From positions 1 to 53,732 of the forward strand of contig JBFMGR010000005.1 of assembly GCA_040753135.1 (NCBI GenBank): a stretch of 53,732 bases of DNA, in the 5' to 3' direction. The translations under genes were made by a program, and so were the position numbers. Of this stretch, positions 6,980 through 34,830 are shown one piece after another. The notes under the pieces were generated by a model. That model was given only the letters and a program-made list of their open reading frames with translations, searched no databases and was not told the DNA's origin. The stretch's first letter is position 1. Every line of letters begins with the position of its first letter. This DNA is from Patescibacteria group bacterium (GTDB taxonomy: Bacteria; Patescibacteriota; Minisyncoccia; UBA6257; Brennerbacteraceae).

Positions 6980-8356
6980 TCAGGCGTTTTCAACAAAGAT
7001 TTTTTCTTTGATTGAGTTGATTTCTTGGGATAATTGAGTGTCAAAGCGAAGCTCCTTTTCTATTTTTGAGCAAGCGTGGATTACGGTGGTATGGTCTTTG
7101 CCGCCGAACTTTTCGCCAATGTTTGGATAAGACATCTTTAAAACTTCTCTCATCAGATACATGGCAATCTGCCGGGGACGAACCAGTTCTTGGGACCTTG
7201 ATTTTTTAAACAGTCTGTCTTCGGTTAAATCATAAAAACTTGAAACAACTTTGATTACCTGTTTAGGATTTAAGGTTTTGTGAACCGGCCGGGCAAGATC
7301 AGCCAAAAGAGCTTCTATTTCTTTTAAGCCGGGCTGTTTTTGTTTGACTTTGGTATAGGCCAGAACTCGGTTGAAAGCCCCCTCTAATTCGCGAATGTTT
7401 CTTTGGATTGTTCGGGCAATTAACTCCAAAATTTCCTCATCTAAAATCGCTTTCTCTCCTCGGCTTTTCGCTTTTAGAATTGCCATTCTGGTTTCAAAAT
7501 CAGGAATGCCGACATCAGCAATCATTCCGCCTTCAAATCTGGAGCGAACCCGTTCTTCAATTGAAGCGATTGCCTTTGGCGGACGATCAGAAGTAAAGAC
7601 AATCTGCTTATTTTTTGTGTAAAGGGTGTTAAAGATATGGAAAAGTTCTTCTTGGGTCTTTTCTTTGCCGGCAATAAATTGAATGTCGTCAATTAAAAGC
7701 GCGTCCAGGTTTCTGAACATATTTTTTAACTCGCTGATAGTGTTTTTCCTGATTGCGGTAACAATATCGCTGACAAATTTTTCCGAGGTAATATACTGAA
7801 TTTTTTTCTTGTTCTTGTATTTTTGCCTTAGAGCGTTGCCGATGGCGTGTAAAAGATGGGTTTTGCCCAAACCAACGCCGCCGTAAATAAATAAAGGATT
7901 GTATTTGATTCCCGGATCTTGGGCGGCAACCAAACTGGCCGCATGGGCAATTTCATTGCTTGAACCGACAATAAAGTTGTCAAAAGTATAACGGAGATTG
8001 AGATTTGTCTCTTTGTCAATTACATAACCGCCGAGTTCAAGCGGAATCGCCTCGGCAACAGTAAAGGTTTTAGCCGGAGCTCGGGGAGCGGTCTTAGCCG
8101 GACCGGCTTTTATTACGTATTCAATTGTTTTAATTTCATTGTCTATTTGCCGGAGAGTTTTTAAGACCAGTTTGTTGTATTTATTTTCCAGCCATTCTTT
8201 GGTAAAGCTGTTGTGGCAAGCGATTACCGCTTTGCCATTTTCTTTTTTAATCAAAGCAGAGCTTTTAAACCAAGTAATAAAATTTGCCCTGGAAATATTG
8301 AGCTCAATTTCAGCTAAAGCGGTTTGCCAGATTTGTTTTAATTCTAAATCATTCAT
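6980..8356 (-). CDS. dnaA: Chromosomal replication initiator DnaA
   Basis: Binds DnaA boxes at oriC and opens the duplex. The 458-residue protein shows domain I at the N terminus, a short linker (about 95-115), the AAA+ domain III with Walker A GGVGLGKTHLLHAIGN and Walker B LLIDDIQF, and domain IV with the helix-turn-helix signature ending GGKDHTTVIHACSKI. Length is typical. A TATAAT lies 11 bases upstream of the ATG on the reverse strand, giving a very short leader. It diverges from rpmH across the probable origin. Confidence 0.97.
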   Translation of the reverse strand: MNDLELKQIWQTALAEIELNISRANFITWFKSSALIKKENGKAVIACHNSFTKEWLENKYNKLVLKTLRQIDNEIKTIEYVIKAGPAKTAPRAPAKTFTVAEAIPLELGGYVIDKETNLNLRYTFDNFIVGSSNEIAHAASLVAAQDPGIKYNPLFIYGGVGLGKTHLLHAIGNALRQKYKNKKKIQYITSEKFVSDIVTAIRKNTISELKNMFRNLDALLIDDIQFIAGKEKTQEELFHIFNTLYTKNKQIVFTSDRPPKAIASIEERVRSRFEGGMIADVGIPDFETRMAILKAKSRGEKAILDEEILELIARTIQRNIRELEGAFNRVLAYTKVKQKQPGLKEIEALLADLARPVHKTLNPKQVIKVVSSFYDLTEDRLFKKSRSQELVRPRQIAMYLMREVLKMSYPNIGEKFGGKDHTTVIHACSKIEKELRFDTQLSQEINSIKEKIFVENA

Positions 8357-34564: not shown

Positions 34565-34830
34565 GTGAAACATGTTTCACAGGCTTTTGTTTCACGTGAA
34601 ACATTTTATAACTTAAAATCTTTGGGAAATAGATGTTTCACGTGAAACATTTTCGCGTGAAACATGTTTCACAAGCATAATTAACACTATTTTTAAGTCT
34701 TTGTGAAACATTTTATCCAAATTGTTTCACAAGATTAGGATGTTTCACGTGAAACATTTTTCTGTGAAACATGTTTCACAAGCTTAACCGAATGGTTTTG
34801 TGAAACATCTTGTCAAAATGTTTCACAAAA
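34565..34830. other. parS: Cluster of parS-type centromere sites
   Basis: Three perfect copies of TGTTTCACGTGAAACA lie at 34588-34603, 34634-34649 and 34741-34756. This is the consensus ParB (Spo0J) binding site. Between them are three copies with the half-sites in reverse order, GTGAAACATGTTTCAC (34565-34580, 34657-34672, 34764-34779), single half-sites at 34703 and 34723, and a spaced pair at 34800/34819. In all, sixteen 8-base half-sites fall within 262 bp. No parA or parB is in the window. The cluster is about 26 kb from the predicted origin, where parS sites normally are. Confidence 0.85.

Follow-up and report, generated by a model that had tools for sequence, protein, structure and literature searches.

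A parS array with reversed palindromes at a fixed 7 bp: a probable ParB centromere in a Patescibacteria family without detectable ParA

The window, by which is meant the whole 53,732-nt stretch of DNA that was analysed, was found to contain a compact array of ParB half-sites that is best read as a chromosomal ParB centromere, in which every parS is accompanied, at exactly 7 bp, by a palindrome of the same half-sites in reversed order. An exact search of both strands of the 53.7-kb window returned 16 copies of the half-sites TGTTTCAC/GTGAAACA, all of them between 34565 and 34826; the shuffled window gave a mean of 1.4 and a maximum of 5. Three perfect parS sites, TGTTTCACGTGAAACA, in which the halves converge, start at 34588, 34634 and 34741. 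Three reversed-order palindromes, GTGAAACATGTTTCAC, in which the same half-sites diverge, start at 34565, 34657 and 34764. This search confirmed the counts of three, three and sixteen that had been given by an earlier sequence-only reading of the window. The leftover half-sites had been described there as singles plus a spaced pair. The spaced pair was upheld and the singles were not, as the remaining four half-sites pair up as GTGAAACA-N12-TGTTTCAC (34703 to 34730) and GTGAAACA-N11-TGTTTCAC (34800 to 34826), both spaced and divergent and neither of them assigned a strand.

The elements follow one another as reversed, parS, parS, reversed, spaced, parS, reversed, spaced, so the alternation previously claimed is not a strict one; in arrows and gaps (bp) the array is <>7><30><7<>30<12>10><7<>20<11>. 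The regular feature of the array is the 7 bp between each reversed palindrome and a parS, which together make a 39-bp unit. Unit A (34565 to 34603) is in inverted orientation on the minus strand, with the parS at 34588 to 34603 and the reversed palindrome at 34565 to 34580. Unit B (34634 to 34672, plus strand) has its parS at 34634 to 34649 and its reversed palindrome at 34657 to 34672, and unit C (34741 to 34779, plus strand) has them at 34741 to 34756 and 34764 to 34779 respectively. Units B and C are like-oriented, unit C lying 107 bp further along than unit B. A longer inverted repeat, AAGCCcGTGAAACATGTTTCACaGGCTT, encloses unit A; neither of the other two units is part of a longer stem. 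No half-sites with one mismatch were found between approximately 34400 and 34950.

The source genome (622,592 bp in 18 contigs, with a listed completeness of 100%) contained no parS or reversed palindrome beyond these six when it was searched with up to two mismatches. The three exact copies of the 16-bp consensus are in excess over chance, as expected of a chromosomal parS. The sequence-only reading had proposed such a search, with a generic repeat as the alternative; a generic repeat was not supported, and a generic dispersed repeat was rejected on the single-locus distribution. A search for parB, proposed in the same place, revealed a single locus, on contig C15 and so on another contig than the array. 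The encoded protein has ParB_N, HTH_ParB and ParB_C domains and has kept the GERRxRAA and ENLQRED motifs, and its best PDB matches were Spo0J/ParB chains. Because the sites are unique in the genome and the only parB has intact domains and motifs, the array is taken to be a chromosomal ParB centromere, a reading that we grade as strong on the sequence evidence. A Noc-type protein was considered as a second reader of the sites and rejected: only one ParB-domain protein is encoded by the genome, TIGR04285 scored 207 bits against a cut-off of 315, and the sites fit the parS consensus.

The dnaA gene (6980 to 8356, minus strand; TIGR00362, E 2.7e-154), which marks the probable origin region, lies 26.2 kb from the array, and the GC skew of the contig turns near dnaA. 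The DnaA box TTATNCACA did not occur in the 53,732-nt window, and it is from dnaA and the skew turn that we infer an origin near the array. Of the earlier proposal, the chromosomal parS array and its closeness to dnaA were supported.

An N-acetylmuramoyl-L-alanine amidase gene (Amidase_2, Pfam PF01510; 34844 to 35278, minus strand) flanks the array, and its 3′-end adjoins the array in all five family genomes where an array was located. Past the amidase lies a conserved neighbour encoding RNase Y (Pfam PF12072; 36472 to 37998, plus strand), and this gene pair flanks the arrays of all five genomes. Four of the five arrays also have a methyltransferase and a binding-protein gene in common as neighbours; the fifth, that of G005, sits at a contig end. 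Comparison of this locus in related genomes, which had been suggested as a check, revealed an array kept in the same neighbourhood in five family genomes. The amidase search was without a match in the sixth family genome, G002, so its array, if it has one, was not located. On the other flank of the array a gene for a histone-deacetylase-fold protein (Pfam PF00850; 33687 to 34541, minus strand) adjoins it in the source genome only among the genomes compared; no such gene was seen next to the relatives' arrays.

With up to two mismatches allowed, the 39-bp unit (parS-N7-reversed) was found nine times in five of the six family genomes, in the same gene neighbourhood. The gap was 7 bp in 9/9 units. 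All nine reversed palindromes of the family had a parS partner, and nine of the ten family parS had a reversed partner. Changed letters in the nine units numbered 1 in 144 positions for the reversed site and 4 in 144 for parS, so that the reversed palindrome is preserved no less well than parS. The letters of the spacer vary, with three A or three T beside parS followed mostly by CCT. Distances between units also vary among the family arrays, and the gap from parS to the reversed palindrome is constant. Within the family the paired unit is conserved; as the nine units are homologous, they represent one design related by descent and not nine independent cases. Since the 7-bp link to parS is fixed across the family, it is likely, judging from this conservation, that the reversed palindrome has a function, which may be the second binding mode suggested by the earlier reading.

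The exact reversed palindrome was present in four of the six family genomes compared to two of 238 other genomes of the order (Fisher p ~1.5e-6, ignoring kinship). Neither of the two outsiders has the 39-bp unit: the reversed palindrome of G022 is a hairpin followed by eight T, and in G056 it arises from a half-site abutting a variant parS. A phylum sample of 380 genomes contained no reversed palindromes except in the source genome, so no wider family of them was found. A search of GTDB contigs for the exact parS-reversed composite, with gaps of 0 to 30, returned one contig, apparently that of G004 itself, from a collection that may omit near relatives of the source.

Compact arrays were also analysed across the order, in a comparison set of 81 genomes made up of the source genome and relatives from its family and order. 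Exact parS was found in 27 of the 81, and 23 of these 27 carried at least two copies. At 22 of 27 loci at least two parS lay within 68 to 731 bp (median ~226 bp), and the compact arrays of the order have two to seven parS with extra half-sites. Around parS, 99 half-sites outside perfect palindromes were counted in the 27 loci, whereas decoys (shuffled 8-mers with the same letters as the half-site) averaged 2.6 and never exceeded 13. For genomes of the order that have exact parS, the usual form is therefore a compact array with satellite half-sites around it, and the window is no exception; the earlier view that such compactness is unusual does not hold. The isolated half-sites have an A-rich 5′ flank before TGTTTCAC, as at the half-sites of parS, and a purine is nearly always next. 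These shared flanks suggest that ParB would read isolated half-sites too.

In 12 of 30 loci, same-direction tandems of half-sites recur in the vicinity of parS, their halves separated by 4 bp (L005, L006, L007, L017, L018, L024 and L035) or 5 bp (L009, L011, L019, L022 and L034); these are perhaps another ParB arrangement. Additionally, a second cluster, with four exact half-sites and without any parS, was located on contig C2 of G001 (L081: 16789 to 16861), ~8.4 kb away from where G001 has its main array.

The ParA domain PF13614 had no match in the source genome or in the five other family genomes; in the comparison set it matched 39 of the 81 genomes, and every one of 14 control genomes matched as well. 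An N-terminal LGRGL-type motif of ParB, which we take to be the ParA contact, was present in 10 of 12 ParB from genomes with ParA and in 1 of 20 from genomes without, relatedness being ignored. This motif was absent from the five family ParB that were examined (G000, G001, G002, G003 and G005), all of which begin close to the ParB_N domain. Thus neither the ParA Walker ATPase nor the LGRGL-type ParB motif of a type I ParABS system was found, and a classical ParABS motor and centromere is unlikely because no ParA was detectable and the family ParB lack the ParA-contact motif. An association between exact parS and the presence of ParA was considered for the comparison set and rejected, as 13 genomes with exact parS had ParA and 14 did not (Fisher p = 1). 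In G012, G035, G053 and G069 (family f8) the ParB-family matches were weak and partial (E ~1e-10 to 1e-13), and these genomes had neither ParA nor exact parS; divergence or loss of ParB may have taken place there.

An SMC-family protein of 729 aa (PF02463), as expected where SMC, ParB and parS organise the origin, is encoded on contig C8 of the source genome (L090: 192 to 2381). Its TIGR02168 score of 551.7 bits is just under the cut-off of 567. It is shorter than the SMC model (1181 positions), and an SMC hinge domain was not detected in it by Pfam. SMC-family open frames of ~700 to 770 residues were observed throughout the order (source genome and loci L075 to L078). With ParA not found, what is left for ParB and parS to do is likely to be the organisation of the origin region, probably via SMC loading.

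ParB dimers in general close to form a CTP-dependent sliding clamp when their HTH domains occupy two convergent half-sites that abut, and loading of this clamp is thought to need half-sites that both converge and abut. It has been proposed that parS acts as a catalyst, with two ParB subunits on the abutting convergent half-sites clashing to give the closed sliding clamp (PMC8494293). When 1 to 8 bp were placed between the parS halves, binding was almost unchanged and the stimulation of CTP hydrolysis was gone; spacings of 2 to 5 bp inhibited hydrolysis (PMC8494293). The ParB of Pseudomonas aeruginosa has no need to spread in order to bind half-parS, and a role for half-parS in keeping ParB on the nucleoid has been proposed (PMC10419367), whereas the ParB of Bacillus subtilis and Corynebacterium glutamicum showed no half-site binding in ChIP data (PMC7022226).

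Applied to the array, this would make the perfect parS the loading sites of ParB clamps. The reversed palindromes would be bound by the HTH domains of ParB but would not bring about the head-to-head clash by which the clamp is driven shut; ParB should not close there because the same half-sites face apart. They would keep ParB open and non-sliding 7 bp from each loading site, acting as a local reservoir or anchor (the favoured role) or, second, as a barrier to sliding. The output would be the loading of SMC in the origin region, in place of movement driven by ParA. We give a little better than an even chance to this ParB centromere without ParA, in which parS would load clamps, the reversed sites would hold open ParB and SMC loading would be the output. 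ParB binding to the reversed sites, their holding role and the SMC-loading output are the parts that we infer. Several points count against it: half-sites are not bound by every ParB; the constant gap comes from homologous units; intermediate spacings inhibited the published reaction, and holding sites could in the same way lower loading; and normal SMC loading is not to be taken for granted with a short SMC in which no hinge was detected. A bolder formulation, that the 39-bp unit is a new directional two-part centromere element, is put forward tentatively and with more doubt than confidence. ParB clamps would be loaded by one half of the unit, and the second half, set at an unvarying distance, would hold or block ParB, as the adaptation of a ParA-losing lineage that uses ParB only for SMC recruitment.

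The blocking role may also be considered on its own. ParB, or another protein, on the reversed palindromes would then stop clamps, and the outward sites would limit or polarise spreading and protect the neighbouring genes. In all three genomes that have at least two units (G000, G003 and G004), parS lies on the inner side and the outermost reversed palindromes point outward, but these three arrays are homologous, the single unit of G005 has its parS on the amidase side, and unit B of the window is internal. We regard such a barrier as unlikely to be the main role of the sites. The extra half-sites that surround parS in many arrangements throughout the order allow a simpler account, namely that the reversed palindrome is two of these half-sites chancing to abut, with ParB binding any arrangement and the order being meaningless. 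This is quite unlikely given the gap of 7 in every unit, the almost unchanged sequence of the reversed palindrome across five genomes and the concentration of its exact form in the family compared to the rest of the order.

It is very improbable that the reversed palindromes form stem-loops at which transcription of the amidase gene terminates. Unit A does lie within a longer inverted repeat and the G022 copy combines a hairpin with eight T, but no terminator-like site (a G+C-rich stem and T run) was found between 34450 and 35000, copies B and C have no T-tract after the stem on either strand, and the 7-bp link to parS would be left unexplained. A mobile or dispersed repeat unrelated to segregation is scarcely credible: the similarity of units B and C at 107 bp would allow a local duplication, but a search that allowed up to two mismatches found no further copy in the genome, the locus is the same in five genomes and the parS consensus is exact.

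The reading that we retain is that of a ParB centromere without ParA, in which reversed sites would hold open ParB beside the loading sites. What is new here is the pairing of a reversed palindrome with parS at exactly 7 bp, and the absence of detectable ParA from all six family genomes; no description of parS organisation in CPR/Patescibacteria, a placement that agrees with the small genome and its gene content, was found in the literature searched. A natural centromere that pairs parS with divergent half-sites at a constant distance offers a ready-made test of the clamp-loading model and of the role of half-sites. Additionally, a family that keeps a ParB centromere, with a ParB that is short at its ParA-contact end and with no ParA found, helps to separate the ParA-dependent from the SMC-dependent roles of centromeres.

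The plasmid centromeres sopC of F and parS of P1 are also compact, with several half-site-like boxes in varied or opposite arrangements; they are of plasmid type, have other proteins and operate with ParA, unlike the array described here. Streptococcus pneumoniae has been reported to be without parA (PMC7022226) and, like the family, has kept parB without it. It belongs to an unrelated lineage, and the five family ParB differ in beginning near ParB_N without the ParA-contact motif. The cluster of Myxococcus xanthus, with 22 parS in 3 kb and parAB ~4 kb away (PMC3899335), resembles the array in having many 16-bp parS of two half-sites crowded into a single locus near the origin, which for the array is the probable one marked by dnaA. 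M. xanthus has ParA; here parB is on another contig, ParA was not found, and reversed palindromes lie 7 bp from parS. The isolated half-sites resemble the half-parS of P. aeruginosa (PMC10419367, PMC7022226), which are likewise of the GTTTCAC type and are candidate non-spreading, ParB-retaining sites. Half-parS of P. aeruginosa number in the hundreds and are distributed genome-wide, whereas those described here keep to the few hundred bp around parS and, in the family, take the form of a fixed divergent palindrome.
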